Positions 3,163 to 21,444 of a stretch of 36,488 nucleotides of DNA are shown piece after piece (position 1 is the first letter of the stretch; each line of letters starts with the position of its first letter). A model generated the notes under the pieces. It did no database searches, was not told the origin of the DNA, and was given only the letters and a program-made list of their open reading frames with translations. Made by a program: the position numbers and the translations under genes. This stretch comes from Candidatus Hydrogenedentota bacterium (lineage in GTDB: Bacteria > Hydrogenedentota > Hydrogenedentia > Hydrogenedentales > JAGMZX01): contig JAKQEQ010000053.1 of assembly GCA_029556545.1 (NCBI GenBank), positions 1 to 36,488 on the forward strand, read 5' to 3'.

Positions 3163-3951
3163 TTACATAGCGCAACGGAAGCCATAGTTATCTCTACGCA
3201 GGGTGGGATCGTCGCATTCACGCCCAGCGCATCTAAAGTCGCCTACACCTCGACGGATGGCATGTCTTGTCGAATCACGCCACGATCCACCCCGCAAGAC
3301 CCGAAAACAATCGTTGGTATGTGCCAACTTCAGCTTGCCTTGCTTATACCGTTCGTATGCCCTCGGTTCATAGCAGTCTGCGCACCACTCCCAAATGTTC
3401 CCTGACATTTGATACACCCCCCACGGGCTGCAACCTGCTGGATAGCCCCAAACATCACACGTTGTTTCGCGGCCTTTGTTCGCGCTGTTCCGGCATTTGT
3501 TTTCGTCCCAGGTATTGCCCCACGGATACCGGAAGCCGGTCATGCCCCTGGCGCCTTTCTCCCACTCAAGCTCTGTAGGCAGCCGCAGTCCTGCCCACGT
3601 GCAATACGCCTGCGCGTCGTCCCAATTCACGAATACCACCGGATGGTTTGCCTTCGCAAGCGAGAAAGAGCTCTTCAGCCACACTCTATTGTGGCCGGGC
3701 TTGTCCAGCGGCCGATGATTGGTTGCCTCCACGAATCGCCTGTATTGCGCGTTTGTAACTGGGTGAAGCGCGAGATAGTATGCGGGTAGCCGCACCGGAA
3801 ATGCTTCATCGCCTGCCAAGAACTCGCCCTCAGGGATCAAGACCAGAAGGGTTCCGTCTTTCGGATTCTTGACGGGCAAATACACGCGCACAAGGTCAAT
3901 ATTCTGCAAAACAGATACGAGCGTGTGCTCGCTATCATCTTCGTACATCAT
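3163..3951 (-). CDS. F2: FGE-sulfatase-fold protein, diverged copy
   Basis: A 262-residue copy starting [10 protein letters not shown] (ATG at 3951, or 3948). Its start lies 4 nt after the stop of the upstream AAA ATPase, so translational coupling is likely. The core fold is complete ([62 protein letters not shown]) and ends RVLRGGSW...GFRCAM. Unlike F3, F5 and F6, the tail is longer, its codons vary at third positions, and the downstream hairpin is absent. The DNA is also visibly less GC-rich. It looks like an older or non-diversified member. The paired active-site cysteines of true FGE are not evident, so a binding role is more likely than sulfatase maturation. Confidence 0.92.
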
Positions 3952-3955
3952 CAGA

Positions 3956-5602
3956 TCAGAACTCGAAAACCCGCTTGGGCTGTTTGGGCGCGGGCGGCGG
4001 TTCCGAGACCGCGTCCGCGCCGGCAGCCGCGCCGGCAACGCCTTCACTGCTCGCCCGGCGCCATTTCCTCCGGGCTTCGTCCCACAGCACGCGGACCTTC
4101 GGGTCCACAGACCGGGACAACGGCACGGTCGTAGTAATGGCCTGTTCGAGATGGCGGTCTTCGAGTTTCGCTTTCTCTCCTTCGGCAAAGGCCAGATACA
4201 GGGACGAAATAACCGCCTGCTCGATTTCCGCGCCCGAGAACCCGTCACACGCGGCGACATGCCGCTCCAGGGCGAAATCGTTGTAGTCGCGATGATGTTT
4301 CGCGAGGTGAATGGCGAGCACGTTGGCTCGTTCCTGAGGCGTGGGCAGGTCGATGAAGAACACGTCGTCGAAACGGCCCTTGCGCAGCAGTTCCGGAGGC
4401 AGGCCCTCGATGTCGTTGGCCGTGGCGATAGTGAACACCGCCTTGGTCTTCTCCTCCATCCAGGTCAGCAGCGTGCCGAAGACGCGCGCCGTCACCCCGC
4501 TGTCGCCCTGGGGGCCGCGCGTGCCCGCCAGGCCCTTCTCGATTTCGTCAATCCAGAGCACGCAGGGCGCCACCGCCTCGGCCATCTTGATCGCGCGCCG
4601 CATGTTGTCCTCGGCCTGACCCACCAGCGGCGCAAACACCTTGCCCAGATCGAATTTGAGCAACGGCATCTGCCATTCCGCCGCGACCGCCTTGGCCGTC
4701 AGGCTCTTGCCGCAGCCGGGCACGCCCACCAGCAGCAGCCCCTTCGGGCTTGGCAGGCCGAAGGCGCGCGCCGCATCCGAAAACGCCTTGCCCCGCTGTT
4801 GCAGCCACGCCTTGAGCAGGTCCAGCCCGCCCACGGTGCCGAACCGTTCCGGCGTCGAATAGAACTCCAGCATGGCGGACTTGCGAATGATCTGCTCCTT
4901 TTCCGCGAGGAGCAGGTCCACGTCGCGTGCGTCGATGCGACGGTTGGTCACGATGACCTTCGCCAGCGCGTTCTCGGCTTCCATCAGCGTCAGGCCGTTC
5001 AGCGCCTTCACGATGCGCTCGCGATCGCCCTCGCCCAGGTTCGTCTCGACCTTGGGGTCGTCCCGGAACTGCTCGATGTTGTCTTCCAGAATGGCGAGCA
5101 GCTCCGCCTCGTCCGGCAGTTCGAGATCGATAACCGTCACGTCTTTTTCCAGTTCCGGCGGAATCTTGAGCACCGACGACAGGATCACAATCGTCTTGTA
5201 GGAACCTTTGAACGGACCTATCACGTCGCGTAACTGGCGGATGATCAGCGGGGACGTGGGCGCGCGCTCGTCGAGGAAGAAATGGAAGTCTTCGAGGATG
5301 AAGATGCCCGGGTCCTCCCGTTCGAGCAGGAACGGGAGAATCAGTTCCGGGTTCTTGGGCGCGGCCGCGGCCACGGGCCGGAGGTCCACCGTGCAGAGCC
5401 CCCGCGACACGGACCAGACATAGGGCTTTCGCCGCGGCGCTTCGCCTTCTTTAAGGATGCCCGCGATGAGCTTGATGGCCCGGTCCTCTTCCGCGGTCAC
5501 CAGGTACAGGATCGGATAGCCCGCGCGGATATACGTCCGCAGTTTCTCCTGAAACGGAGAAAGCGGCGCGGCTGGGGATGTGGAGGCGGTTTGCTGTGTC
5601 AT
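3956..5602 (-). CDS. Ycf46-like AAA+ ATPase
   Basis: A 548-residue protein related to the plastid/cyanobacterial Ycf46 AAA family. Residues 20-240 form the family N-terminal region ([37 protein letters not shown]). Residues about 250-480 are the AAA+ core: Walker A GVPGCGKS at 293-300, Walker [11 protein letters not shown] at about 348-357, ATAND at 393-397, arginine finger in RKGRFDD. A short charged and Ala/Pro-rich tail ends VFEF. I chose ATG 5602 because it overlaps the DUF2997 stop as ATGA. A longer open frame to 5722 only reads through that gene. It is very similar to the AAA half of the neighbouring kinase fusion, so the two may form mixed rings. Confidence 0.93.
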
Positions 5603-5796
5603 TGGCCGCGCTCCCGGACGCGTTCTTCCTCGCAAACCTGCTCGAAGCATTCCGGCTTCAGCGTCCGCTCGCCCACGGGCGACCCGAGCCGCTGCTCCAA
5701 CTCCCGCGTGAACTCGATACACTCCTCGCCCGTAGCACCCAGCGCTTCGATGTGCTGCGTCCCGTCCTTGTGCAACGTCACCTTAATCTTTCTCAT
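5599..5796 (-). CDS. DUF2997-family small protein
   Basis: A 65-residue protein (MRKIKVTLHKDGTQHIEALG...) matching the DUF2997 pattern: a short beta-rich N-terminus, then GEECIEFTRELEQRLG. In cyanobacteria and other bacteria, DUF2997 genes sit beside DUF1257 (Ycf35) and Ycf46-like AAA genes, which is the neighbourhood seen here. The function is unknown. GGAGG lies 9 nt before the ATG. The stop overlaps the AAA start by ATGA, which points to coupled synthesis. The C-terminus is charged and carries two cysteines. Confidence 0.85.
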   Translation of the reverse strand: MRKIKVTLHKDGTQHIEALGATGEECIEFTRELEQRLGSPVGERTLKPECFEQVCEEERVRERGQ

Positions 5797-6032: not shown

Positions 6033-6848
6033 TCATAAAACCGTCCTGCAGCAACGAAACCCGCGGCGGACGCTGCGCATCGCCGGGCCGCGGTGGTGGC
6101 GGTTGCGGTACGCGCAGCGGAAGGCGTCCGCGTCGCTGAAGCACCACGACCCGCCCCGCAACAGCCGAGCGCCGCCGTTCGCGGGCGCCGTCAGGTCGCC
6201 GCGCTTGTACCGCCCATACGCCCCGCTCTCGTACCAGTCCGCGCACCATTCCAACACGTTGCCTGACATCTGGTACAGCCCCCACGGGCCGCACCCCGCC
6301 GAATACGACCACACGCCGCACGTGGTCTCGCGGCCCTTGTTCGTGTCGTTCCGGCACTTGCTCGCGTCCCAGTCGTTGCCCCACGGGTATTCCCGCCCGT
6401 CCACGCCGCACGCGCCTTTCTCCCATTCCAACTCGGACGGCAGCCGCATCCCCGCCCAGTCGCAGTACGCCTGCGCATCCTCCCAACTCACGCACACCAC
6501 CGGGTGGTCCGCCTTCTTCGCCGGAAACCGCTTGCCTTTCCATACCGGCGTGCCCCAATCCGCCGTGTCCGGCGGCTGATGCCCCGTCGCGTCCACAAAC
6601 CGCTGGTACTGCGCGTTCGTAACCGGATGCAGGGCCAGGTAGTACGCGGGCAGACGCACAGGAAATGGCCCGCCGCCTTCATCGCTTCCCTTGCCGCCCG
6701 CGAGGAACTCGCCCTCGGGGATCAGCACCAGCGGCGTTCCGTCTTTTTCATTCTCGATGATCGGCGCAACGCCCAGCACCGCCGCAAGACCGAAGTCCGC
6801 CGGGGTCAACGGCCACGTGATGGGCGTTTCTTGTATTTCTTCAATCAT
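6033..6848 (-). CDS. F3: FGE-fold protein with a hypervariable C-terminus
   Basis: A 271-residue protein. The N-terminus ([20 protein letters not shown]...) shares the stretch [21 protein letters not shown] with F4, so these two adjacent genes are recent duplicates at the 5' end. The lectin-type core runs from about residue 45 to the end. The ATG at 6848 has AAGG about 11 nt upstream. An upstream ATG (6881) is possible but has no Shine-Dalgarno sequence. The last part, after RGGSW and before GFRC, consists largely of NNC codons and differs from F5 and F6 only at codon positions 1 and 2. The sequence after the stop is also shared with F5. This is one of the likely active variable proteins. Confidence 0.93.
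6063..6143 (-). other. Variable region (VR-like) of F3
   Basis: Twenty-seven codons between the constant TCGTGG (Ser-Trp) and the constant GGGTTTCGTTGCTGCAGGAC. Compared with F5 and F6, all differences fall on positions that could be adenine in a common template. Constant islands inside are TTC CGC TGC GCG and GGC CCG. Confidence 0.75.
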
Positions 6849-6911
6849 TCGTCTGTGGCCTTCAGTCCACGAATGCGGCAATGCTCAAACTTACTGCTTG
6901 TCATCTTGGCG

Positions 6912-7733
6912 CTATCCCAGTTCCACCGTCTTGGCGCAACGAAAGCCAACCTCGGCTCTCTTTTCTGTCGGGGTGCCGCTGCGGCGGTATGCGCAACCGA
7001 AGTAGTCCGGGCCGTAGGCCTGGCTGTAAAACGACCCGCCCCGCAACACCTTATATTGTCCGCCAGCGGGCGAAGCCAGGTTTCCGCGCTTGTAACGCTC
7101 ATATACCTCCCCTTCATACCAGTCCGCACACCATTCCAGCACGTTCCCCGACATCTGGTAACCACCCCATGGGCTACACCCTTGGGGGTACATCCATACG
7201 CCGCATGTATAGCCTCTGCCTTGGTTCGTGTGGTTGCGGCACTTGCTCGTGTCCCAAGTGTTGCCCCACGGGTACTCCCGCCCGTCTACGCCCCGCGCGC
7301 CTTTCTCCCATTCCAATTCCGAAGGCAGTCGCAGCCCCGCCCACTCACAGTATGCTTGCGCATCCTCCCAACTCACACACTCCACCGGATGGTCCGATCT
7401 TTCGGCAGGAAAACGATCACCCTTCCACACAGATTTGCCCCTTACTGTCGTAGGGGGTGAGTGGTGCCCCGTCAGTTTCATGAAGCGTTTGTACTGCGCG
7501 TATGTCACCGGATGCAGGGCCAGATAATACTTGGACAACCGAACCGGGAACCTGTAATCACTCGCTAGGAACTCGCCCTCGGGGATTAACACGAGCAACG
7601 TCCCGTCCTTTTCGTTCTCGATGATCGGCGCAATGCCCAAGACCGCCGAAAGACCGAAGTCCGCCGGGGTCAGGAGCTTGGTCGCTTCCATATCTTCAGT
7701 CGTTACCATTTTCTTCGTGCTTCCTGTCGCCAT
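6912..7733 (-). CDS. F4: FGE-sulfatase-fold protein
   Basis: A 273-residue protein starting MATGSTKKMV. The ATG at 7733 follows GGAGGG very closely, so ATG 7709 (MVTTED) is an alternative. It shares its N-terminal linker with F3 and then the common core ([55 protein letters not shown]). The C-terminus reads RGGSF, a 35-residue variable-looking stretch, GFRCAKTVELG. It uses third-position changes and lacks the downstream hairpin, so it is outside the hypervariable subgroup. It starts 19 nt after the DUF1257 stop. Confidence 0.92.
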   Translation of the reverse strand: MATGSTKKMVTTEDMEATKLLTPADFGLSAVLGIAPIIENEKDGTLLVLIPEGEFLASDYRFPVRLSKYYLALHPVTYAQYKRFMKLTGHHSPPTTVRGKSVWKGDRFPAERSDHPVECVSWEDAQAYCEWAGLRLPSELEWEKGARGVDGREYPWGNTWDTSKCRNHTNQGRGYTCGVWMYPQGCSPWGGYQMSGNVLEWCADWYEGEVYERYKRGNLASPAGGQYKVLRGGSFYSQAYGPDYFGCAYRRSGTPTEKRAEVGFRCAKTVELG

Positions 7734-7752
7734 TACCCTCCGCCGCCATCTT

Positions 7753-8163
7753 TCAGCCCCGCTCCGAGTAGAGGAGGATGATGTCGCCATTCTCTAACAC
7801 TTCCTCCGACTCAAGAACCCGGTCTTCGAGACGCATTTGTTCCTTCACCAAATGGTAGCCGTATCGTTGGTTCAGTTCCTGAAGCCATGCTGTATTGCAG
7901 CGGTTTCGGCGGTCGAACTCGGAGATGATCGCCTCGAACTCGCCGGAGTCCTGCCGCTTGAAACCCACGTCGTTGGCCGCCGCGCCGATGTACTTGCGGC
8001 GGATGATGACTTCCGCGGTCTGCGGCCGCAGGTCGCCCCGGTAGCCGAACAGGTGTTGCGCTTCTTCATGGACCTCGACATCCGCGAAGCCCATTTCGTG
8101 CAGGGCTTCGACCAGGAACGGAACCTCGCGGATTTGCGTTCGAATGCACGTGTAGTGAGACAT
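7753..8163 (-). CDS. DUF1257 (Ycf35-like) protein, copy A
   Basis: A 136-residue protein starting MSHYTCIRTQIRE, the standard DUF1257/Ycf35 opening, and ending LENGDIILLYSERG. Ycf35 is a conserved plastid and cyanobacterial protein of unknown biochemical role that neighbours Ycf46-type AAA ATPases. The start has AAGGGG about 8 nt upstream. It lies 15 nt after copy B and shares the same first and last residues with it, so the pair arose by tandem duplication. The middle of the two copies is quite different, suggesting distinct partners. Confidence 0.88.
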   Translation of the reverse strand: MSHYTCIRTQIREVPFLVEALHEMGFADVEVHEEAQHLFGYRGDLRPQTAEVIIRRKYIGAAANDVGFKRQDSGEFEAIISEFDRRNRCNTAWLQELNQRYGYHLVKEQMRLEDRVLESEEVLENGDIILLYSERG

Positions 8164-8178
8164 CGCATGCCCCTTTCT

Positions 8179-8571
8179 TCAGCCCCGCTCCGAGAGCAGG
8201 ATGACCAGGTCGCCGTTCTCCAAGGTCTGTTCTTCCTCGACGATGAGGTTCTGCTCAACCGCCTGGTTGCGGACGAGGTTGTACGCGTACTGGCGGTTGA
8301 CCTGCTGCACGAACGTCTCCTGCCGGATGGGCGAGTTGCCTTGGACGCCCCACCAATCGGCGACGATGTCGTACTCCTGCGCCTTGCGTTGGAATCCGAT
8401 GTCATAGGCGCAGCCGGTGTTCACCACCACCTCCGCCGTTTCGCGGTTGCTCGCATACCCGCGCACGACGAGGTTCTGGCCCTCCTGAAACTGGTAGTGC
8501 AGGTCGCGCAGGGCCTGCACCAGGTGCTCCCGCTCGCGAATTTGCGTCCGAATGCGTAAGAAGTGTGACAT
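8179..8571 (-). CDS. DUF1257 (Ycf35-like) protein, copy B
   Basis: A 130-residue paralog of the next gene (MSHFLRIRTQIRER..., NRQYAYNLVRNQAVEQ, LENGDLVILLSERG). AGGA lies about 9 nt before the ATG. No membrane segment or signal peptide is seen. Together with DUF2997 and the Ycf46-like ATPases it reproduces a module known in cyanobacteria, but here embedded among FGE-fold genes and an Hsp70/GrpE pair. Confidence 0.88.
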   Translation of the reverse strand: MSHFLRIRTQIREREHLVQALRDLHYQFQEGQNLVVRGYASNRETAEVVVNTGCAYDIGFQRKAQEYDIVADWWGVQGNSPIRQETFVQQVNRQYAYNLVRNQAVEQNLIVEEEQTLENGDLVILLSERG

Positions 8572-8665
8572 AACGTGTTCCTTTCGTATTAGCGGTCAGC
8601 GGTCAGCCGTCAGCTGTGCTCGGATACCGGCAGATCCCTGCGTTGAATCCCTTTTTCCGGCACGT

Positions 8666-9082
8666 TTACGTTCTCCGACTTTCGGCGAGCTTCCGGATGA
8701 GGCTCGCCAGCATTTGTTTCACCTCCGTTACCGCCGCGGAAAGACGGTCGTGATCCGCACGTGGAATGTATCCCAGGTCGCGGGCCAAGAAGAGATGATA
8801 CTCGACCTCGCTTGCCGAACCCATAGCCGCGGTGAATATTGGACCGCCTTCGGCGGGGATTCGCGTAAGGAAGCGGGCCGGGGACTGCCACAAGCGACCG
8901 CGCGTTTCGCGCGGGAGACGTGGCTGTCCCCGAGTGTCCAGGCTGATGGCTGTGAGCTTGGGGACAGGCACGTCGCGCTCGAAGACTCGCGCGCTTGTGC
9001 CAGTCCCCGATCTTGGGTCATGATCGCCGGCGCGGAACGATAGCGGCCTGCGCCCGCTCTCTGTCTCCACCGTCTCACTCAT
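8666..9082 (-). pseudogene. Four-helix-bundle (23S rRNA intervening-sequence type) protein, N-terminus replaced by palindromic repeats
   Basis: The C-terminal 50 residues (GSASEVEYHLFLARDLGYI ... MLASLIRKLAES) are typical of the four-helix-bundle IVP/S23 family. The family's N-terminal helices (the FRDLxVW type) are missing. The 138-residue open frame upstream of this instead reads through two GGGGAC/GTCCCC palindromes at 8879-8932 and 8960-9008. A good AAGGAG precedes the ATG at 9082, so some chimeric product may still be made. I read it as a gene broken by REP-like insertions. Role in the cluster unknown. Confidence 0.55.
8879..9008. repeat. Two tandem REP-like palindromes
   Basis: Palindrome 1 (8879-8932) has CGGGGAC and GTCCCCG arms around a CGCGCG/CGCGCG core. 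Palindrome 2 (8960-9008) has GGGGAC-A-GGCAC against GTGCC-A-GTCCCC. The arm sequences match the GGGGAC-type repetitive extragenic palindromes that RAYT (REP-associated) transposases mobilise in many GC-rich genomes. No RAYT gene is in this window. Confidence 0.65.
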
Positions 9083-9143
9083 TCATCCCGTCTCCTTTCC
9101 TCAAGTTTTCACCACCTCGATTTCCGCCGTCCCTTCCTTACGG

Positions 9144-10697
9144 TCATCCCTCCTTCGAAAGCACGAGTTTCCGCTTGTCATCCGCCACAGGCGGCGGTTC
9201 CTCGCTCGATGCCGGGAATGCGCGGCCCTCGGTCAGCCATTTGCGTAATGCCTCGATGATCTCCGCGTGCGACTTGCTCAAGGGCACCACCTCGGCCATC
9301 GCATCGAGCAGGTCGCGCATTTCGATTTCACGGTTGTGGTCGGCGAAGGCAGTGAACTGCGCCTCGTGCACCACGCGCTCGATTTCCCGACCGACGAAAC
9401 CTTTGCTCTTCGCCACGAGTTCGTCCGTACGGAAGAAACTCCGCTCCGGAAAGGTCACGCCCGCGCGCTCCAGGTGAATCAGGAAGATAGCCTTGCGCTC
9501 CTGACTGTTGGGCAGGTCCAGGAAGAAGGTGCGGTCGAAGCGGTTCATCAATTCCGGCCGCAACGCCTCCACTTCGTTCGCCGTGGCGATCACGAACACC
9601 TGCGACTGATGTTCCTGCATCCAGGTCAGGAAGCTGCCGAACACGCGCGTGGCCGCGCCCGAATTCAAGCCGCCCGCCGCCGATCCCGCGAACGCCTTCT
9701 CCATCTCATCGATCCACAGGATGCACGGGCTGACCGTTTCCGCCAGCATGATGGCGTGGCGCATGTGCTTTTCCGATTCGCCGAGCAGCGACTCGAAGAC
9801 CGCGCCGATGTCCAGCCGCAAGAGCGGCATCTTCCACAGGCCCGAGGCCATTTTCGCGGACAAGCTCTTGCCCGTGCCCGGAATGCCGATGAGCGCCATG
9901 CCATGCGGGAACGGCACTCCCGCCTGTTGCGCTTCATCGGAAAAGGCCAGTTCGCGCTTCTTGACCCAGCCCTTCATGAGGTCGAGACCGCCTACCGACG
10001 ATTCGCCCTCTTCTGCGGGCCAGAACTCGAGCGCGCCGCTTTCCTTCACCACTTCGCGCTTGACCGATGTAATCAAGTCGATCGCTTTTTCGTCGAACTT
10101 CTCATATTTCGCGTAGACCCGCGAGAAGGCGCGCAGCGCCTGGTTCGTGGTCAGCCCGAGGGCCGACGACACGATCTTTCCGCGCACCTGCGGGTTCGGC
10201 AACTGCGACCCCTTCAAGTCGCGCGTCTGTTCCGTGAAAAGCGCGGCCATGGCCAAGCCGTCCGGCAGCGGCGCGTGTACCACCAGCACGTCGTCCTTGA
10301 GTTCCGCCGGCAGTTCGAGCATCGGCGTGATGAATACCAGAAACTGGTTCTTCTCGCGCAGGGCCGGCGCCATGTTGCGCAATTTGCGGGTGATGTATCC
10401 CTTCTTCTGGTTCCACGCATGGTGAAAGTCCTTGAGAATGACCACCGTCTTCGGCGGCATCTGCTGCGCCAGATGCGGTAGGACCGTGTCGGTCGTCATC
10501 TCCTTGCGTGGCAGCGGGGGCTGACCCTCGCGCACCGCCGTAAAACCGTCCGCCAGGTCCCACGTGTACACGCCGAAGCCCGCCTTGTTCGTGGCTTCCG
10601 CGATCACGCGCGTCATCCGCTCCTCCTCGTAGGTCACGAGATTGATCAGCGGCACATTCGCCGCAAACAACGAAGTCAGTTCTTCCTTCAGGTCCAT
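9144..10697 (-). CDS. Ycf46-like AAA+ ATPase, second copy
   Basis: A 517-residue protein. Residues 1-225 are the family N-terminal region (FAANVPLINLVTYEEERM, VVILKDFHHAW). Residues about 233-480 are the AAA+ core: Walker A GIPGTGKS at 271-278, Walker B ILWIDEMEK at 326-334, ATANEVE at 371-377, arginine finger in NRFDR. I favour ATG 10697 over 10703 because AGGAGG is 9 nt from it and only 3 nt from the other. It is more diverged from the other two Ycf46-like proteins than they are from each other. The last 30 residues are a flexible Pro/Glu/Lys tail. Confidence 0.92.
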   Translation of the reverse strand: MDLKEELTSLFAANVPLINLVTYEEERMTRVIAEATNKAGFGVYTWDLADGFTAVREGQPPLPRKEMTTDTVLPHLAQQMPPKTVVILKDFHHAWNQKKGYITRKLRNMAPALREKNQFLVFITPMLELPAELKDDVLVVHAPLPDGLAMAALFTEQTRDLKGSQLPNPQVRGKIVSSALGLTTNQALRAFSRVYAKYEKFDEKAIDLITSVKREVVKESGALEFWPAEEGESSVGGLDLMKGWVKKRELAFSDEAQQAGVPFPHGMALIGIPGTGKSLSAKMASGLWKMPLLRLDIGAVFESLLGESEKHMRHAIMLAETVSPCILWIDEMEKAFAGSAAGGLNSGAATRVFGSFLTWMQEHQSQVFVIATANEVEALRPELMNRFDRTFFLDLPNSQERKAIFLIHLERAGVTFPERSFFRTDELVAKSKGFVGREIERVVHEAQFTAFADHNREIEMRDLLDAMAEVVPLSKSHAEIIEALRKWLTEGRAFPASSEEPPPVADDKRKLVLSKEG

Positions 10698-10749
10698 AAC
10701 CATGTTCCTCCTGTCGTTCCGGCCAGGTTCCTTGTCCCCGCGAACGCTG

Positions 10750-11973
10750 TCAAAGCAGGCCGACGGGAATGGCCGAGGCCTTTTCAGTCAAAGGTATAGG
10801 CTCCTTGCACATGCAGACGACGCCGCCCTCACCCACAGGTTTTCCGAGCCGATCGAGCGCGCCGAACGCGCGAACCCACTCTCGGCTTGGGGTGGCCCCC
10901 CGCTTGATTTCGAGGGGGAAAAGCCTCTGGTCCCGCGCGAACAGCAAATCAATCTCCCTGCCGTCCTTATCGCGGTAGTAGTACAAATTGGGCGTGCGCA
11001 TGCGGTGCCACCAACTCTTGATCACTTCCCCAAACACATACGTCTCGAACAAGGCCCCGCTCATGGCGCCCGCCGCCAGGGTCTCCGGCGTCGTCCACTC
11101 GGTAAGATAGGCGCACAGGCCCGTGTCCAGGAAGTAGAGCTTCGGGGTTTTCACGAGCCGCTTGGTCACGTTCGTGTGATACGGCTGCACCAACATCGCC
11201 TGATAACTGGCCATGAGAATGGAAAGCCATGCCTTGGCCGTTTTCACGGTCACGTCCACGTCGCGCGCCAGTTCGGACAGATTCAGCATCTGCGCCGTGC
11301 GCGCCGCGCAGGCCTTCACGAATCGCAGGAAGGCCCGCTGATCACCCACCTGCGTCAAGTCGCGCACGTCGCGCTCGAGGTACGTCTGGAGGTAGGAACT
11401 GTAGAACAGGTCGCGGTCCCGCACGTCCCCGGCGTGCAGCGCCGGGAACGAACCCAGCCAGATACGCTTGAACACCGATTCCAGGCTGGACGGGGCCGCC
11501 GTGGCCGCGCGCGACGCGATTTGGTCCTGCGTCGGCAGGAACGGGTCCAGGTCGTGTTTGCGCCGTTCGAGTTCGCGGCGGGAGAAGCCCAGCAGGTTGA
11601 TGACCGCCACACGCCCGGCAAGGCTTTCCGAGATTCCCTTCATCATGTGGAACTGCTGGGACCCCGTGAGCCAGAACGCGCCGCAGGTCCGCGAGGCGTC
11701 TACCTCCATCTTGATATACGGCAGCAGATTCGGCGCGTACTGCACCTCGTCAATCAGCACCGGCGCCCGATACCGCTGCAGGAACAAGGCCGGGTCTTCA
11801 TTGGCCAATGCCCGCGTCGTAAGGTCGTCCAGCGTAACGTACCGCCGATCCTTCCCGCGGAGATGCCGGAGCAGGGTCGTCTTGCCCACCTGGCGCGGCC
11901 CGGTCAGCAGCAGCACGGGAAACTGGGTCGCGGCATCCAGGAACGCCGCCTCAAGGGTGCGCGATACGTACAT
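10750..11973 (-). CDS. AAA_14 / DUF4143 ATPase
   Basis: A 407-residue protein of the widespread AAA_14-DUF4143 family. The N-terminal ATPase domain has Walker A TGPRQVGKTT within the first 40 residues, Walker B VLIDEVQYAP and the sensor WLTGSQQF. The C-terminal DUF4143 part contains YLERDVRDL, LYFLDTGLCAYL and the restriction-nuclease-like motif DKDGREIDLLFA...PLEIKRG. The start at MYVSRTLEAAFL is placed by homology: the longer frame to 12078 runs through an AT-rich region with an inverted repeat (11992-12011) that looks regulatory. These proteins are abundant and often mobile. The function in this cluster is not clear. Confidence 0.88.
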   Translation of the reverse strand: MYVSRTLEAAFLDAATQFPVLLLTGPRQVGKTTLLRHLRGKDRRYVTLDDLTTRALANEDPALFLQRYRAPVLIDEVQYAPNLLPYIKMEVDASRTCGAFWLTGSQQFHMMKGISESLAGRVAVINLLGFSRRELERRKHDLDPFLPTQDQIASRAATAAPSSLESVFKRIWLGSFPALHAGDVRDRDLFYSSYLQTYLERDVRDLTQVGDQRAFLRFVKACAARTAQMLNLSELARDVDVTVKTAKAWLSILMASYQAMLVQPYHTNVTKRLVKTPKLYFLDTGLCAYLTEWTTPETLAAGAMSGALFETYVFGEVIKSWWHRMRTPNLYYYRDKDGREIDLLFARDQRLFPLEIKRGATPSREWVRAFGALDRLGKPVGEGGVVCMCKEPIPLTEKASAIPVGLL

Positions 11974-11991
11974 GGCTGTGTCCGTCCAATT

Positions 11992-12011
11992 TATATTGTG
12001 ACTCCAATATA
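11992..12011. promoter_or_regulatory. AT-rich inverted repeat before the AAA_14 gene
   Basis: TATATTG, 6 nt, CAATATA: a perfect 7-bp inverted repeat about 19 nt upstream of the ATG in otherwise GC-rich DNA. It could be an operator. No convincing -35/-10 pair could be assigned. Confidence 0.4.
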
Positions 12012-12117
12012 GCCGATCCATGCCCCCGAGATAAACCGCCTCCGGCGCGGCGCTGTATCTGATGCGTTGCGGTTGCATTTCCCGAAGAAAAAACGCGATC
12101 GCGCCCTTCGGGCGCGG

Positions 12118-12142
12118 CCAGAGGGGGGAAGCCCCCCTCTGG
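12118..12142. repeat. 11-3-11 hairpin downstream of F5
   Basis: The same perfect stem as at 5963-5987 (CCAGAGGGGGG against CCCCCCTCTGG, loop AAG). It lies 44 bp after the F5 stop, preceded by the same pyrimidine-rich CCCTTTG tract. The loop differs by one base. Confidence 0.7.
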
Positions 12143-12186
12143 ACTCCCCCCGGAAAAGGGCAAAAGGGATAAAGAACAAAGGGTAA

Positions 12187-12900
12187 TCATAAAACCGTCC
12201 TGCAGCAACGAAACCCGCCGAGGGCGCGGCGCCGCGACGGGCCGTCGTAGGAGCCGCGGCGCGCGCAGCGGAAGGCGACCGAGTCGAGGAGGGCCCACGA
12301 CCCGCCCCGCAACAGCCGATACTGCCCGCTCGCGGGCGCTGTCAGGTCGCCCCGCTTGTACCGCCCATACGCCCCACTTTCGTACCAGTCCGCACACCAT
12401 TCCCACACGTTCCCCGACATCTGATGCAAACCCCACGGGCTGCACCCCGCCGGATACGACCACACGCCGCACGTCGTCTCGCCGCGCTTGTTCGTGTCGT
12501 TTCGACACTTGCCCACGTCCCAATCGTTGCCCCACGGGTATTCGCGCCCATCCGTCCCCCGTGCGCCCTTCTCCCATTCCAACTCCGAAGGCAGGCGCAA
12601 CCCCGCCCAGTCGCAATACGCCCGCGCATCCTCCCAACTCACGCAGACCACCGGGTGGTCCGCCTTTTCCGGAGGAAAGCTTTTGCCCTGCCACACGGGC
12701 GTGCCGTAGTCCGCCTTCTTCGGCGGCCGGTGGCCCGTCGCGTCCACGAAGCGTTTGTACTGCGCGTTCGTTACCGGGTGCAGCGCGAGATAGTAAGCGG
12801 GCAAGCGAACCTTGAACTTGTCATCGCCCGCCAAAAACTCGCCCTCGGGGACCAGCACCAGCAGGGTGCCGTCCTTCGGGTTCTCGACCAGCCACTCCAC
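12187..12900 (-). CDS. F5: short FGE-fold protein with a hypervariable C-terminus
   Basis: A 237-residue copy, the shortest here, with almost no N-terminal extension before [16 protein letters not shown]. It starts with GTG at 12900, with AAGGA 7 nt upstream. The core is nearly identical to F1 and F3. The tail after LLRGGSW is made largely of NNC codons, then GFRCCRTVL. The stop and next 45 bp are shared with F3. It follows the Hsp70 gene after an 84-bp spacer holding an 8-nt tandem repeat. It is probably a minimal ligand-binding domain delivered to the chaperone module. Confidence 0.93.
12217..12294 (-). other. Variable region (VR-like) of F5
   Basis: Twenty-six codons, one fewer than F3, between the same constant flanks. 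Variable codons include GCC CTC CTC and GGC TCC TAC GAC, all with unchanged third-position C. Confidence 0.75.
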
Positions 12901-12925
12901 AGGCTATTCCTTCTCTCGTTCCGCA

Positions 12926-12981
12926 CTTCTCAACTTCTCAACTTCTCAACTTCTCAATTTCTCAACTTCTCAACTTCTCAC
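12926..12981. repeat. Tandem repeat, seven copies of an 8-nt unit
   Basis: CTTCTCAA repeated six times with one T variant, then a final CTTCTCAC. It fills most of the spacer between the Hsp70 stop and the F5 start. The minus strand reads TTGAGAAG. Such a repeat can change copy number by slippage and alter spacing ahead of F5. Confidence 0.85.
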
Positions 12982-12984
12982 TTC

Positions 12985-14616
12985 CTACAGCCTCACGACC
13001 GGGTGATCTTCCAAGAGGACAACGCCCCTGAGATTATCGAGCGCCGTCACCAGCAGTCGGCGGTTGCCGTCCACGCGGAACGAGCAGAGAAAGCGCTGCT
13101 GGTCCCGTTCGCGATTGATGGGCGGGTCCGCGATGATGAACGTGGGGTTGTCCTCGTTCAGGTACACATGCTGGTTCTGGGTGGCCACGCCGACGCCGAC
13201 GCGCAGCACGCCGCCCGGCCCCACAACGCCGTCGCCGAGATCCCGCCGCTTTAATTGCGAGACCTCGAAGATTTTCAGGCCGAGCCGCGTTTCGCCGTTG
13301 TGCGTTCCCTTGACCCAACGCCGGACCGCCTCGGGCGGCGTGGGGTATTCCGTGCCTTTCTCAAACAGCAGTCTGAACTCGTTCTGCTTCGTCTCGCGGT
13401 TGTAGACAAGAATGGAATAGTCGTGGCATAAGTGGGGGGTCACCACGCCCTGGCACGCGCCGCGCACGACGGCCTCGAATGGCCGGTCCTGAAAGACGCG
13501 CTCACCGAACATCTCGACGAGTAATCGGCGGACCGGCGGCGCCAGGCTGGTCCCGCCCGTGACCAGCACGCGCGTGACGTCCGCCCTACGCATTTGCGTC
13601 CTGACCGCCGCATTCTCCAGCGCCCGGTCCACCGTCTCGCGCACGCGCTGCGCGAAACCCTGCCGCAGCAGGATGCAGCCGAGGCAGGCGTCGCCGGTGT
13701 CCTTGCGCGGCCGCGCGGTCCCCGGTGCGCATGCGGGGCAGCGGGCCGTGTACGCCGTCGAGTGCACCCGCGGCGCGGCCCCATACTTGTTCACGACGCT
13801 GATGGTCGCATCCTCTTCCGACGGGTTGGACAACCTGATCTTCGCCTCTTCGGCCTGCCGCAGGATGTACGTCTCCAGTTCCTGCCGGGCGGTCCCGTTC
13901 AGACGGTGTCGCTCGCAGAAGTCCTCCAGCAGCCAACGGTCAATGTCCACGCCGCCCAGTTCCTCGCCCGCCGCGCCAAGTTGTACGGCCTTCGGGTCCT
14001 GGCCCGGCTCGAGTTCCAGGCGCACGGCGGACACATCGAGCGTGCCGCCGCCGAAATCGAAGACCACGAAGCGGTCGTTCCGCCGCGCCATGCCCATGTA
14101 CCCGAACACGCAGGCTGTCGGTTCGTCCTGCAGCCGCACCCGCCTAATGCCGAGGGACTCCGTTACGCGCAGCAGCCAGTCCTGGAAGTCCTCGAAGGCC
14201 TCGACCGGCGCCGTGAACGTGAATTCGTCGTGCTCGAACGAGATGCGGTCCCCGGCCCACTTCAGCAGCGTCGAGAGGAAATCGTCTCCGGCCTGCGCCG
14301 CGTTCTTGAAACCGTACGGAGTATTCCGAACCCTCGTGTTGTGTTGCGCGATGGCCCGCTTCATCCAGCGGAAAGTATCGGGGTGCTCCGCCAGGCCCCG
14401 GGCCGATACCTGATTGCCGATCAGGGTGGCGGTGGGGGAGTAGTGGATGAGCGAAGGCGTCACGTGGACCACGTGTTTCGTGTCGCCGGGACGGCCCTGC
14501 CACACGTAGGGCCTCGTGATCTCCGGTATCTCGATGGTTTCCGCCTGCTGCGTCGCCTCGTTGAACCGGGCAATCACGGTGTTGCAGGTCCCGAAATCAA
14601 CGGCCACCTGTCCCAT
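12985..14616 (-). CDS. Diverged Hsp70 (DnaK-like) with an inserted four-cysteine zinc knuckle
   Basis: A 543-residue Hsp70 homolog. The ATPase domain shows phosphate-1 VAVDFGTCNTVIA at 4-16, EPTACVFGY at 165-173, phosphate-2 VVFDFGGGTLDVS at about 184-196 and the adenosine motif VLVTGGTSLAP at 350-360. At 293-314 an insertion carries CPAC and CLGC 14 residues apart, a likely zinc site not found in housekeeping DnaK. After residue 400 comes a beta-sandwich-like substrate domain, but the C-terminal helical lid is missing (DnaK is about 640 residues). The gene starts 3 nt after the GrpE stop. No J-domain protein is in the window. This suggests a dedicated chaperone for the cluster's own proteins rather than general folding. 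Confidence 0.93.
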   Translation of the reverse strand: MGQVAVDFGTCNTVIARFNEATQQAETIEIPEITRPYVWQGRPGDTKHVVHVTPSLIHYSPTATLIGNQVSARGLAEHPDTFRWMKRAIAQHNTRVRNTPYGFKNAAQAGDDFLSTLLKWAGDRISFEHDEFTFTAPVEAFEDFQDWLLRVTESLGIRRVRLQDEPTACVFGYMGMARRNDRFVVFDFGGGTLDVSAVRLELEPGQDPKAVQLGAAGEELGGVDIDRWLLEDFCERHRLNGTARQELETYILRQAEEAKIRLSNPSEEDATISVVNKYGAAPRVHSTAYTARCPACAPGTARPRKDTGDACLGCILLRQGFAQRVRETVDRALENAAVRTQMRRADVTRVLVTGGTSLAPPVRRLLVEMFGERVFQDRPFEAVVRGACQGVVTPHLCHDYSILVYNRETKQNEFRLLFEKGTEYPTPPEAVRRWVKGTHNGETRLGLKIFEVSQLKRRDLGDGVVGPGGVLRVGVGVATQNQHVYLNEDNPTFIIADPPINRERDQQRFLCSFRVDGNRRLLVTALDNLRGVVLLEDHPVVRL

Positions 14617-14619
14617 GCC

Positions 14620-15168
14620 TTATTCCTCCTTCGACCGCACCATGGCCTTGAGGATCACCGTCTCGCCGAGCCGGTAGCCGGGCATCTCGACGACGACCGG
14701 CGTGCCCGGATGGACGCCGCCGCCGCTCATCCGCTGGTGCGCCGCCGCGTCGAAGCCCGCTTCCTCGCCTACATCGCCAATCTGTTCGAGCCCGGCCTTC
14801 CGGAGTTCCTTCATGAGGCCCTCGAACAGCGACAGCAGGTCCCCGGCCTCGACCGGCCGCCCCGACCGGTCCAGCGCCTCCAGCGTAGCCAGGTTCGACA
14901 GCGACCCCGCCAACCGCTTGAACAGCCGCGCCAACTCATCCGCGCCCGCCTCCGTTTCCGCCCGCTGGCGTGCGGCCTCGATATGGCCGTACTCGGCCTG
15001 CATCTTCCGGATACGCTCATCCCGCTCGCGCAGGTCCATCTCAAGCGTTGCAACCCGCGCGCGCCAGCCCGCCTCGGTCTCGGGCATCGGCCCCGTACCC
15101 GCCTTGCGCCGCAACAGCGCCGCCGCGCACCGCTCCAGAAAGCCGCCTGTTCGCTCTCGCTTGCTCAT
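14620..15168 (-). CDS. GrpE-like nucleotide exchange factor
   Basis: A 182-residue protein. Residues about 30-75 are a predicted coiled coil (ARVATLEMDLRERDERIRKM). The C-terminal beta domain has the GrpE signature: LEQIGDVGEEAGFDAAAHQR, then VVVEMPGYRLGETVILKA and MVRSKEE. It would release ADP from the adjacent Hsp70. The pair is probably co-translated. The alpha-helical N-terminus is Arg-rich with a pair of Leu-Arg blocks, unlike housekeeping GrpE. I leave the symbol empty because this is a specialised paralog. Confidence 0.87.
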   Translation of the reverse strand: MSKRERTGGFLERCAAALLRRKAGTGPMPETEAGWRARVATLEMDLRERDERIRKMQAEYGHIEAARQRAETEAGADELARLFKRLAGSLSNLATLEALDRSGRPVEAGDLLSLFEGLMKELRKAGLEQIGDVGEEAGFDAAAHQRMSGGGVHPGTPVVVEMPGYRLGETVILKAMVRSKEE

Positions 15169-15199
15169 AACGCTTCTCCCCCGGCGTCGCGCCGGCTTG

Positions 15200-16411
15200 T
15201 TACGCCTCTTCCACTTCGACCGCGCCCTCGTACGCCTCGACCACCACGTCCTCGATGTCCACCGCGTCCATGCGGTGCCCGATCAGCCCGCGCAATACCT
15301 TGCGCACCGCGCCAAACTGGCCGACCCACGCCTCGCGCGGGGCCGACTCCAATTCCTCCAAGTGCGCCGGTGTCGCGCGAAGGGGCCACAAATCGAGCAG
15401 CGCGCCCGCCTCATGCAGCGCGCAAATCCAATAGTTGTCGTCCTTGACGCCGTCCTGCGCCAGGCTGCCCCGGCACAAGCCCGTCGCGTAGCCCGCCATC
15501 CGGACCAGCCAGTGCGGATGCGTGCGCACCGTGTTCGACGCCGCGCTGTCCGGGCGGCACTGGCGCGCCAGCGCCGCGACAATCCCGACGCCCTCCGGCG
15601 GCGTCGCGGTCTTCAGCTTCTCGATCAGCGTATCCACGGTGCCTTCCGGCGCGGCGGCGAGCCAGCGTTCGAAGACGGAACTCGTGGTGTCCGCCGCCTT
15701 GCGTTTGGGCGGCGCGTATCCCGCGGCGTCTTCCAGCACCTGGGCGAACATGCTGCGATCCCGCGGGTCTTCCGGCTGCCAGCCTGATTTCCGGAAATGC
15801 TCGATGAGCGGGTAGCCGTGCTTCATCGGAAGCTGCAGGAACGCCTTGAACAGCCACGGCCAGTTCCGCCGGCGCAGCGCGGCCTCGAGCGCCCCCTGGA
15901 TTTGCGCGTCCGTGCACTTGTGCAAGTGGCGCCCGACGCCCAGGAAATCCTGGCAGCGCCGGTCGCCCGTGCGGATCACGGCCATCACATGCTCGCGCAC
16001 CGTTTCATCCGCCTGGTCGTATTCCATGCGCAGGTTCTGGAACTCGTAGTCCTCCCGGAAATACGCGTCCAGTTGTTTCGTGACAAACAGAAACAGGCTT
16101 GCCCGCTCCGTGCGCGTCGGGCGCCTCCCCGTCTGAATGCACAAACGCGCGGCATGGCCCGCGGGGTCGCGGATCGCCGCCTCGCACAGCGCGTCCACCG
16201 CGTCCGGGCGGCGTAGTTGCCGCAGTCCCGTGTCGGCGATGGCGCGGACCTGCGGGTCCTCCGACGCCAGCGCGCCCAGGAGCAGCGGCACCGCCTCCGG
16301 GCCGCCGTCCGCCGCCAACGCCTCACAGGCCTTGCGCCGCCGCTGCCGCCCAAACAAGGGCATCCGGCTTTGCAGACGTCTTGCGTAACGATCAATCAGT
16401 CGCTGTTCCAT
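15200..16411 (-). CDS. HEAT-repeat-like protein
   Basis: A 403-residue protein with no signal peptide. Residues about 25-110 form HEAT-like helices (ACEALAADGGPEAVPLLLGALASEDPQV...). The rest is helical with a cysteine near each of several repeats and no recognised catalytic motif. It precedes GrpE and Hsp70 by 31 nt, so it is likely an adaptor or scaffold in the same complex. The start MEQRLIDRYARRL has AGGAGG about 9 nt upstream. Related proteins with eroded HEAT repeats are found beside AAA and chaperone genes in other predicted conflict systems; the assignment here is from pattern only. Confidence 0.82.
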   Translation of the reverse strand: MEQRLIDRYARRLQSRMPLFGRQRRRKACEALAADGGPEAVPLLLGALASEDPQVRAIADTGLRQLRRPDAVDALCEAAIRDPAGHAARLCIQTGRRPTRTERASLFLFVTKQLDAYFREDYEFQNLRMEYDQADETVREHVMAVIRTGDRRCQDFLGVGRHLHKCTDAQIQGALEAALRRRNWPWLFKAFLQLPMKHGYPLIEHFRKSGWQPEDPRDRSMFAQVLEDAAGYAPPKRKAADTTSSVFERWLAAAPEGTVDTLIEKLKTATPPEGVGIVAALARQCRPDSAASNTVRTHPHWLVRMAGYATGLCRGSLAQDGVKDDNYWICALHEAGALLDLWPLRATPAHLEELESAPREAWVGQFGAVRKVLRGLIGHRMDAVDIEDVVVEAYEGAVEVEEA

Positions 16412-16691
16412 GGTTCTGACCTCCTATGCGCCGCAACGGCGCAGATACACCATAACATGACGCTTTTCTCGCGGCACTTGATTCGCCGCTGTTACAAAGC
16501 TCTCGAAGGAGCAGACCTCCTCGAACAGATTCCCATAGCGTTTCATCGCATCACCTCACCGCTGATAGCTGACCGCTGATAGCTGATTGTCTGTAGCCCC
16601 CGAACGGCGCGCCGCCGGCGCGCGAAAAAAATTCGGCCGCTCGCTTCGCTCGCGGCGCAAAGGATAAAAGGAATAAAGAACAAAGGGTTAT
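16412..16691. other. Spacer between F6 and the HEAT-repeat gene
   Basis: A 280-bp region without a supported gene. It contains the CCCTTTG tract shared with the F3 and F5 3' ends, an arm-rich element GGCCGCTCGCTTCGCTCGCGGC at 16635-16656 that recurs behind F8 at 21516-21537, and a short run of the GCTGATA/GCTGACC repeat. Confidence 0.65.
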
Positions 16692-17489
16692 TCATAATAG
16701 AGTCCTGCAGCAACGAAACCCGCGGTAGACGTCGCGCCGCGCCGGGCCGTAGCTGCTGCGGCGCGCGCAGCGGAAGTAGTCCGAGCCGCTGAAGTACCAC
16801 GACCCGCCCCGCAACAGCCGAGCGCCGCCACCCGTTGGCACCGTCAGGTCGCCGCGCTTGTAGCGCTCATACGCCCCACTGTCCCACCAGTCCGCGCACC
16901 ATTCCCACACGTTTCCCGACATCTGGTAGCAGCCCCACGGACTGCATCCTGCCGGATACGACCACACGCCGCACGTCGTCTCGCTGCCCTTGTTCGTGTC
17001 GTTTCGACACTTGCCCGCGTCCCAATCGTTGCCCCACGGATACTCGCGCCCGTCCGCACCCCGCGCGCCCTTCTCCCATTCCAACTCGGACGGCAGGCGC
17101 AGCCCCGCCCATTGACAATACGCCTGCGCATCCTCCCAACTCACGCACACCACCGGATGGTCCGCCTTCTCCGCGGGAAATCCTTTGCCCTTCCACACGG
17201 GTCCGCGGCCCCATGAGTAGTCCGCTTGGTCCGGGGCGCGATGCCCCGTCGCGTCCACGAAGCGCTTGTATTGCCCGTTCGTCACCGGGTGCAGCGCGAG
17301 ATAGTAAGCGGGCAAACGCACCGGAAACGGCCCGCCGCCTTCATTACCTCCCTTACCGCCCGCCAGGAACTCGCCCTTGGGGATCAAAACCAGCAACGTG
17401 CCGTCCTTCTCGTTCTCGATGATCCGCAGCGCGCCCCAGCGCTCGCGCGCCAAGTCCGGCGGTTCCATCATGCCCGAGAATGCGTCCAT
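16692..17489 (-). CDS. F6: FGE-fold protein with a hypervariable C-terminus
   Basis: A 265-residue protein starting [21 protein letters not shown] 17489 is chosen because GGAGGGG lies 5 nt upstream. The longer frame to 17660 only overlaps F7. The core carries a Gly/Glu-rich insert after EFLAGGKG, also seen in F3 and F9. The tail after LLRGGSW is another version of the F3/F5 variable region, two codons shorter than F3, followed by GFRCCRTLL. The 3' flank diverges from F3/F5 soon after the stop and carries the element shared with F8 instead of the 11-3-11 hairpin. Confidence 0.93.
16722..16796 (-). other. Variable region (VR-like) of F6
   Basis: Twenty-five codons between constant TCGTGG and constant GGGTTTCGTTGCTGCAGGAC. 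Variable codons include TAC TTC AGC GGC TCG GAC TAC. All differences from F3 and F5 are at codon positions 1 and 2. Confidence 0.75.
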
Positions 17490-17562
17490 GAACACCCCTC
17501 CATCGCGTGGTCCCCAAGCCTCACACGATAGGCCATGGCCGCGCCCAGCATCAAGCCCGTTT

Positions 17563-18417
17563 TCAGGCTGCAGACAGGGCGCATCGGAACCCAAGGTCAG
17601 CGGCGCGCGTGTGCGGCGCGTCGTTGCCCCGGGCCGCGCATGCAAACAGGTCTTCGTCATTGTGCCAGCACCCTCCGCGTAGGACCCGATAGATTCCGCC
17701 CACGGGCGGCGTCAGGTCGCCCTTGCGGTAGCGGCCATACGCCCCGTCCTCGTACCAGTCCGCGCACCACTCCCAGACGTTCCCCGCCATCTGACACAAC
17801 CCCCACGGGCTGCGCCCTTCGCAAAACGAGAACACGCCGCACGTCGTGTCGTTGCCGCAGTTCTCATCGTTCCGGCACAGCTTCATGTCCCATTCGCCGC
17901 CCCAGGGGAAGCGCCGTCCATCGCGGCCCCGCGCGCCCTGCTCCCACTCCAGTTCGGAAGGCAGCCGCAGCCCGGCCCATGTGCAGTAGGCTTGCGCATC
18001 TTCCCAACTCACGCACACCACCGGATGGCCGGCCTTCTCGGGCGGGAAGGTCCGGCCCTGCCAAACGGGCGTGCCCCAGTCCGATTGCTCCGGCGGCGGA
18101 TAGCCCGTTGCGTCCACGAATTGCTTGTACTGCGCATTCGTCACCGGGTGCACTGCGAGGTAGTACGCCGGCAGCCGCACCGGAAACCGTTCCGCGCCCG
18201 CCAGAAACACGCCCGCATCAATGCGCACGAGCCACGTCCCGTCTTTGGGGTACTGCGTCGCATCCCCCAGGCCGCACGTATTGCCGCCCCGCTCTTCTCC
18301 GCCGTTCTCTCTTGACGTGTGTTCCAGATGCATCGCGTTCACCATCCGCGCCGTAGAGGCGCGCTCCCTGGCCGCCCCGGTGCGCGGCCCTCGTCCCACC
18401 ACCCGGTCATTGCTCAT
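17563..18417 (-). CDS. F7: FGE-sulfatase-fold protein, first gene of the main operon
   Basis: A 284-residue protein with a long basic N-terminal extension (about 55 residues) before [16 protein letters not shown]. The core is complete ([48 protein letters not shown]) and ends RGGCW...GFRCALSAA. The tail has ordinary third-position variation, so this copy is not in the hypervariable group. The ATG at 18417 lies only about 13 nt from the -10 box of the promoter, and no Shine-Dalgarno is visible. Either the transcript is nearly leaderless or translation starts later, at 18345 or 18333. Confidence 0.88.
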
Positions 18418-20208: not shown

Positions 20209-21444
20209 ATGCGCAAAATCATTTCTGGCAACGTTCTGGTCGCTCAAGGCGGTGGACCGACCGCCGTCATCAATCAGAGTCTGGCGGGAGTGGTCGTGGA
20301 ATCCCGCAAGTTCCCGCAGATTGGCCACGTGTACGGCGCCTTGCAGGGCGTACAGGGCATCGTCAACGAGAAACTCATCGACCTGACGGAGACGACCGAA
20401 CACAACCTCGAAGCGGTGGCCCAAACGCCCGGCGCGGCGCTGCTGTCCACACGCGACAAACCGGACAAGGAATATTGCGGCAAGATACTCAAAGTGCTTT
20501 GGAAACACGGTGTCCGGTATTTCTTCTACATCGGCGGCAACGACAGCGCGGAGACCTGCCTCATTATCAAGAAGCAAGCCGCGAAAGCCCGGCACAAACT
20601 GCGTGTCGTTCACATCCCCAAGACAATCGACAACGACCTGCTGGTTACGGACCATTGTCCTGGATACGGCTCGGCCGCCCGCTTTGTTGCGCTGGCTTTT
20701 GCGGGCGCCAATCTCGACAACCAGGCCTTGCCCGGCGTGTACATCGGCGTGGTCATGGGGCGCGACGCCGGATTCCTGACGGCGGCGTCCTGCCTTGCCA
20801 GGACATACCCGGACGACGGGCCGCACCTGATCTACCTGCCGGAGCGGACCTTTGACGAAGCCCGCTTCGTCGCCGATGTAAAGACCGTTCTCGCCAGGCA
20901 CAAGCGTTGTGTCGTGGCCGTGGCCGAGGGCATCAAGGACGCAAAGGGTAACCGAATCGGCGCGGACTGGGAACACGTGGACAAGTTCGGCAACCCCTTG
21001 CTTTCCGGCGCGTTGGTGGCGAAACGGCTGACGGACGCGCTCGAGCGCGACAAGAGCATCGAGCGGATTCGCGCGGACGTGTTCGGTTATCTGCAGCGGA
21101 GTCTTCCCGGCTGCGTGAGCGAAGTGGACCGGTTCGAGGCGCGCGAAGTCGCGGAGAAGGCCGTCCAGTACGCCATCCGGCATGACTTAGACGGTTCCGT
21201 GGCGATCCGGCGCATCGGCGACTATGCGGTCGAGTATGCACTGAAGTCTTTGGAGAGCGTCGCCAAGAAAACCCGCCACATGGAGGATGAATACATCGCC
21301 GCCTCAGGTACGGATGTCACGGAAGCTTTTCGGGCATACGTGAAACCGCTGGCAGGTCCTTTGCCCTGCATCGAGCGCATTGCCGCGCCCGCCGTTCCCT
21401 CCAAACCACAGGGACGCCGCGCCGGTGGAATGCGTGTGCGCTGA
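20209..21444 (+). CDS. pfp: 6-phosphofructokinase, PPi-dependent type
   Basis: A 411-residue PFK. The substrate loop reads PKTIDND at 137-143: lysine in place of the glycine of ATP-dependent PGTIDND, a mark of PPi-type enzymes. The nucleotide-loop position reads IGGNDS at 108-113, close to the GGDDS of PPi enzymes. It would phosphorylate fructose 6-phosphate with pyrophosphate, reversibly. GQGGG-type start VAQGGGPTAVINQS is at 11-24, and MGRDAG follows later. AAGGAT precedes the ATG. It follows pgk on the same strand and converges with F8, 111 bp away. The combination with pgk suggests a small glycolytic unit. Confidence 0.87.
   Translation: MRKIISGNVLVAQGGGPTAVINQSLAGVVVESRKFPQIGHVYGALQGVQGIVNEKLIDLTETTEHNLEAVAQTPGAALLSTRDKPDKEYCGKILKVLWKHGVRYFFYIGGNDSAETCLIIKKQAAKARHKLRVVHIPKTIDNDLLVTDHCPGYGSAARFVALAFAGANLDNQALPGVYIGVVMGRDAGFLTAASCLARTYPDDGPHLIYLPERTFDEARFVADVKTVLARHKRCVVAVAEGIKDAKGNRIGADWEHVDKFGNPLLSGALVAKRLTDALERDKSIERIRADVFGYLQRSLPGCVSEVDRFEAREVAEKAVQYAIRHDLDGSVAIRRIGDYAVEYALKSLESVAKKTRHMEDEYIAASGTDVTEAFRAYVKPLAGPLPCIERIAAPAVPSKPQGRRAGGMRVR

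Follow-up and report, generated by a model that had tools for sequence, protein, structure and literature searches.

FGE-domain proteins that are targets of diversity-generating retroelements (DGRs) have been proposed as antigen sensors in conflict systems (PMC10907252, PMC7159879). DGRs with FGE or C-type lectin targets, of the BPP-1 and TvpA type, combine an AAC-rich template logic and an initiation of mutagenic homing (IMH) block 3' of the variable region (VR) with a reverse transcriptase (RT), a template and Avd. In the MoxR-vWA-VMAP systems (Kaur 2020, PMC7159879), NTPase and chaperone genes adjoin DGR-diversified FGE proteins, and HSP70 and GrpE occur in some analogous conflict systems (PMC7159879). 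Degenerate DGR loci are known from Thiohalocapsa PB-PSB1 (PMC10907252), where targets have been kept after deletion or interruption of the RT or template and recent diversification is visible. The losses there are tied to transposons or MITE-like arrays, and other complete DGRs, able to act in trans, have been kept.

The window analyzed here, a stretch of 36,488 nucleotides, is contig C102 of a 6.1 Mb Hydrogenedentota MAG (195 contigs, 96% complete). It holds nine genes with a PF03781 (FGE) domain, all on the minus strand and referred to in the following as F1 to F9 (Table 1). Like the BPP-1 and TvpA-type DGRs, the window has an AAC-rich template logic, FGE targets and an IMH-like 3' block, and its intact homologues carry an RT, a template and, in one case, Avd. 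Unlike them, it has nine targets, its genome yielded no RT or template, and the DNA checked for Avd contained none. We consider it quite probable that this is a DGR-written FGE array, in a locus with AAA, Hsp70, GrpE, HEAT and radical-SAM genes, from which the engine was recently deleted in cis. No description of this locus type or of its repeated engine loss was found in the literature searched.

Table 1. Features of the FGE array and neighboring genes (window coordinates).
Feature	Position	Strand	Remarks
F1, FGE-sulfatase gene running off the contig	1-642	-	VR on contig C101, about 187-270
Protein kinase-AAA fusion gene	655-2985	-	70% identical to L156 counterpart
F2, FGE-domain ORF	3163-4260	-	Decayed VR
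AAA ATPase gene	3956-5722	-	71% identical to L156 counterpart
F3, FGE-sulfatase (C-type lectin fold family) target gene	6033-6881	-	PF03781, E 3e-52
20-nt block 3' of F3 VR	6043-6062	-	IMH-like
F3 VR, 27 codons	6063-6143	-	No third-position differences to F1, F5, F6
F4, FGE-domain gene	6912-7790	-	Decayed VR
Two DUF1257 genes	7753-8571	-	Inside the array
AAA ATPase gene	9144-10703	-	63% identical to L157 counterpart
AAA_14/DUF4143 ATPase gene	10750-12078	-	None seen in L156 and L157 loci
F5, FGE-domain target gene	12187-12900	-	
F5 VR, 26 codons	12217-12294	-	
Hsp70-like gene	12985-14616	-	
GrpE-like gene	14620-15168	-	
HEAT-repeat gene	15200-16411	-	Counterpart directly downstream of intact DGR RT in L156 and L157
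DGR RT remnant, first ~30 residues	16457-16549	-	MKRYGNLFEEVCSFESFVTAANQVPREKRH; stop at 16427-16429
F6, FGE-domain target gene	16692-17660	-	Real start probably nearer 17423
F6 VR, 25 codons	16722-16796	-	Equal in length to L156 and L157 template repeats
F7, FGE-domain gene	17563-18417	-	Decayed VR
F8, FGE-domain gene	21556-22335	-	
F8 VR, older	21586-21663	-	4 third-position changes against each fresh copy
F9, FGE-domain gene	22411-23211	-	
F9 VR, 26 codons	22438-22515	-	2-3 third-position changes against each fresh copy
Further copies of the 20-nt block	12197-12216, 16702-16721, 22418-22437		

A C-type lectin/FGE-type domain with a C-terminal VR, as found in DGR targets, was recognized by sequence matches to FGE and to Treponema TvpA (F5 against 2y3c, E 7e-10). 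An AlphaFold model of F5 had pLDDT values below 50 over residues 120–227 and was too poor to serve as evidence of fold, and the predicted family membership does not by itself imply catalysis. The 3' end of F1 was located at the start of contig C101, which shares with the window an exact 141-nt overlap that occurs once in the window. Contigs break inside FGE genes near the VR both here (1–642/C101) and in a congener, G001 (C264/C245), so that assemblies can lose the diagnostic segment.

The preliminary description had placed three VRs, in F3, F5 and F6, between identical flanks; its coordinates were exact, all three VRs being on the minus strand, and the flanks were as described. Codon alignment of the three genes gave 28 variable columns rather than the 27 reported (15 at first and 13 at second codon positions), but the observation that none falls on a third position held. 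When F1, completed from C101, was included, the four copies, referred to here as fresh, had 34 variable columns, 16 first, 18 second and no third positions. The differences between their VRs numbered 64, 65 and 0 at first, second and third positions (154 codon comparisons), whereas those upstream in the same four genes numbered 131, 87 and 312 (1186 codon comparisons). Third-position changes made up 0 of the 129 differences in the VRs versus 312 of 530 upstream (Fisher p = 1e-42). Divergence of paralogues under diversifying selection in a high-GC3 genome, with no retrohoming, could draw on the GC3 of the array genes, which is near 0.8 and makes C and G common at third positions. However, third positions vary freely just upstream and never in the VR, whether a codon reads NNC or NNG is fixed for each column, and an RT scar and intact homologous DGRs, described below, would be left unexplained; we regard this explanation as extremely improbable.

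Adenine was absent from all 45 constant columns of the four fresh VRs, in agreement with the A-free constant islands pointed out earlier, but was present in 77 of 434 constant columns upstream (p = 4e-4). One proposed island, GGC CCG, is probably not constant: the GGC reads GCC in F1 and may well be a mutated GAC. Changes confined to the first two codon positions and constant columns free of A are what is expected of a DGR target. In ten-codon bins, third-position changes were missing over a tract that starts ~7 codons ahead of the VR and reaches at least about 5 codons past it, similar in extent to the template–VR homology in the homologous locus L156. A conserved block 3' of the VR, another mark of DGR targets, is the 20-nt GGGTTTCGTTGCTGCAGGAC, which is IMH-like and identical in F3, F5, F6, F9 and C101. 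When up to 3 mismatches were allowed, it was found in one further place in the genome, as a 3-mismatch match. The length of the fresh VRs varies in steps of whole codons (25, 26, 27 and 28), the extra codons being all NNC. The better-preserved VRs of the window range from 25 to 28 codons, a spread that sets them apart from the BPP-1 and TvpA type. In L156, template and VRs all have 25 codons, as do the listed template and VR of a second homologous locus, L157. Since DGRs have already been proposed to slip on AAC repeats in multiples of three (cited in PMC12875486), this length variation is not new in kind.

The two homologous loci came from public genomes, searched with a profile made from the FGE alignment: L156 in an Acidobacteriia MAG (CAIVVT010000160.1) and L157 in a Deltaproteobacteria MAG (JACQEL010000759.1), with FGEs 71% identical to those of the window. 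Together they hold the window's families (AAA, kinase-AAA, HEAT, GrpE, Hsp70, radical-SAM activase and FGE). They differ from the window in that both have an intact DGR RT, directly upstream of the HEAT gene, and an FRCA-type template repeat, with a bAvd/Avd gene in L156. The RTs of L156 and L157 are 50.7% and 51.1% identical, respectively, to the RT of G001. The L156 template reads RGGSW NNDNTDN FRCANR NNNKPDNR NNNN GFRC, and that of L157 reads NNDNPGN FRCAYR NNNRPDNR NDNN; the adenine template protein deduced in the preliminary description from the VRs alone nearly matches the former, a real template repeat in the same gene family. As a positive control, the L156 template was compared with its four VRs, and 76 of 77 differences fell at template adenines. 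The L156 VRs differed from each other at 74 first, 63 second and 3 third positions, a pattern like that of the window VRs; L157 was left out of this comparison because of a wrong alignment frame. L156 thus provides a complete DGR in a homologous locus, with template–VR differences that are adenine-specific, and it is through such homologous templates that the window VRs, whose own template was not found, would be read as adenine-specific. At the second position of AAC, the base spectrum of the window was not that of L156/L157 (G-rich; p = 4e-4), but the sites are few and no conclusion is drawn from this. The template repeat of L157 is contained in an open FGE-like reading frame (2–898), which looks as though a copy of a target gene had turned into the template.

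Gene conversion among paralogues or from silent cassettes, of the pilin or vls kind, would account for flanks and third positions that are homogenized across copies. It is nevertheless very unlikely: almost all first and second positions of the variable codons differ between the VRs, the copies showed no donor haplotypes in common, and the genome yielded no silent cassettes. The variation in the VRs very likely originated from a DGR, and mutagenic retrohoming, the process named in the preliminary description, is supported as that origin by the codon pattern and by the templates beside intact RTs.

Several candidates were set aside. The templates of the other DGRs of the phylum (CRSA type, always 24 codons) differ in length and islands from what a donor would need. 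A "template" in L117, from the first adenine-mismatch scan, was an A-rich coding stretch that disappeared once non-A bases had to match, and a 23-nt blast match on contig C33, inside the VR, was taken as a likely GC-rich chance match.

A genome search for a DGR-type RT and a template repeat, which the preliminary description had offered as a check, yielded neither, and only an N-terminal remnant of an RT. There was no RVT_1 match in the 96% complete MAG, and the remnant was its only match to phrog_1423, a sensitive DGR-RT profile that had matches in 27 of 60 relatives. No template was found in the genome with the 20-nt 3' block or the TTCCGCTGCGCG island; TTCCGCTGCGCGAACCGC is the island by which a missing template could be found beside an RT. 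The search with avd156 covered the window and the first 20 kb of C101 and had no match there. Two components of a functional DGR, an RT and a template matching the array's VRs at all non-adenine sites, were not found in the genome and loci scanned.

The remnant lies in the slot where synteny would place the RT (16412–16691), with F6 on one side and the HEAT gene on the other. By tblastn it aligned from residue 1 of RT156 onward; identity was 50% over 30 residues, and the remnant leaves homology after MKRYGNLFEEVCSFESFVTAANQVPREKRH, the remainder of the RT being missing. Its best PHROGs family was the DGR RT, at N-terminal positions, which was also the sole family matched by the 40-residue scar peptide alone (E 0.027). 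An HMM was built from four RT N-termini, two of which came from a single G001 gene; among 2223 ORFs from five loci it had matches in this slot and in its counterpart in a Ca. Hydrogenedens locus (E about 3e-7 for each), and nowhere else. The scar lends good support to loss of the engine in cis; unlike the transposon-associated losses of PB-PSB1, it is a plain truncation, in a genome where no RT was found. Because neither RT nor template was found and the slot holds a deletion scar, the evidence supports a DGR as the origin of the diversity and does not extend to ongoing diversification.

Possibly, but in our judgment rather less probably, diversification of the array continues, driven by an RT and a template that act in trans or belong to DNA missing from the assembly, or else the RT has been lost in some strains only. 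A contig with the RT or template may be missing, since the MAG is 96% complete in 195 contigs. The complete lack of third-position decay in four VRs would fit this explanation. So would the DGR RT in G001 and the precedent of Thiohalocapsa PB-PSB1 (PMC10907252), for which activity in trans is documented, as is the coexistence of variants with an intact and with a deleted RT. However, the assembly, 96% complete as it is, holds no RT of any kind and no template; the G001 template, which is of the CRSA type and has 24 codons, cannot have been the source of FRCA-type VRs; and the FRCA-NR-N pattern was found in one of 68 genomes of the phylum, in a single match not tied to a DGR. This FRCANRN-type match (L154, G012:C55:5458–5478) was inspected within 600 bases. 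The G001 DGR (L073:1019–5246) is a canonical one, with an RT, a CRSA template and two caspase/CHAT-like FGE targets, and is unrelated to the array. A local assembly error at 16.4–16.6 kb may be present, and RT-intact strains may exist.

Under the preferred explanation, deletion of the engine in cis, the RT would once have stood between F6 and the HEAT gene, as it stands upstream of HEAT in L156 and L157. It would have copied an AAC-rich template repeat, misincorporating at adenines, and the cDNA would have replaced a segment that begins ~7 codons ahead of the VR and extends to the IMH-like block that follows it. The whole-codon length steps may have come about by slippage on runs of AAC, either as the template was copied or within the template itself. 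Later, deletion in cis would have removed the template and all of the RT except its N-terminus. The VRs form an order of decay: those of F1, F3, F5 and F6 are undecayed, decay has gone further in F9 and F8, and F2, F4 and F7 look most diverged. Since the homing signature of the first four is intact, we infer that the deletion, or at least the last homing, was recent; unless it was, zero third-position decay would sit slightly oddly with a lost engine. In the F9 VR, two compensating frame shifts cause part of it to be read in another frame. The F8 orthologue in G001 (contig C245), next to the same phosphofructokinase gene, has a very different VR.

The neighboring genes resemble those of the MoxR-vWA-VMAP systems in that NTPase and chaperone genes adjoin FGE proteins. 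They differ in that the window ATPases match PF00004 (FtsH/Cdc48-like), alongside a kinase-AAA fusion, and are not MoxR, and there was no vWA, VMAP or MoxR-type match among the genes tested. The ternary combination of MoxR ATPase, vWA and VMAP proteins did not occur among the genes scanned, and we have not filed the locus as such a system because its ATPases are not MoxR and no vWA domain was found. The AAA_14/DUF4143 ATPase gene is probably a later insertion, and the radical-SAM activase gene of this genome is on C101. A phosphofructokinase gene on the opposite strand (20209–21444) splits the array between F7 and F8, and also adjoins the F8 orthologue in G001. The FGE proteins may act as receptors or sensors, coupled to an AAA/Hsp70/GrpE/HEAT chaperone-like machine.

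Deletion scars were also observed in two other loci. In a Ca. Hydrogenedens locus (L155), an RT N-terminal remnant of ~24 residues (766–840) lies upstream of the HEAT gene and ends at a different residue from the window scar. The VRs of this locus are old and decayed, with 21 third-position differences in 75 codon comparisons versus 138 in 407 upstream, which are close rates. In a Polyangiaceae contig (L161:1–230), the N-terminus of Avd and the C-terminus of a DGR RT are joined in a single ORF, which suggests a deletion that removed most of the RT and any intervening template. The three scars look like separate deletions, but three cases do not prove independence. With three different scars in view, one may speculate, though we think it rather unlikely, that in loci of this AAA/Hsp70/GrpE/FGE type bacteria repeatedly enlarge a set of receptors written by a DGR and afterwards shed its RT and template, fixing a useful repertoire by deletion of the mutator.

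The locus links an AAA/Hsp70/GrpE/HEAT/radical-SAM gene set to DGR targets, a link that we did not find described in the papers searchable. Surveys of DGRs start from the RT, so that arrays without one are invisible to them; codon-position statistics can detect such RT-less arrays. The intact engine of L156 and L157, the recently silent VRs of the window and the decayed VRs of the Hydrogenedens locus form a natural contrast, by which the lifespan and fate of DGR-made diversity become testable.
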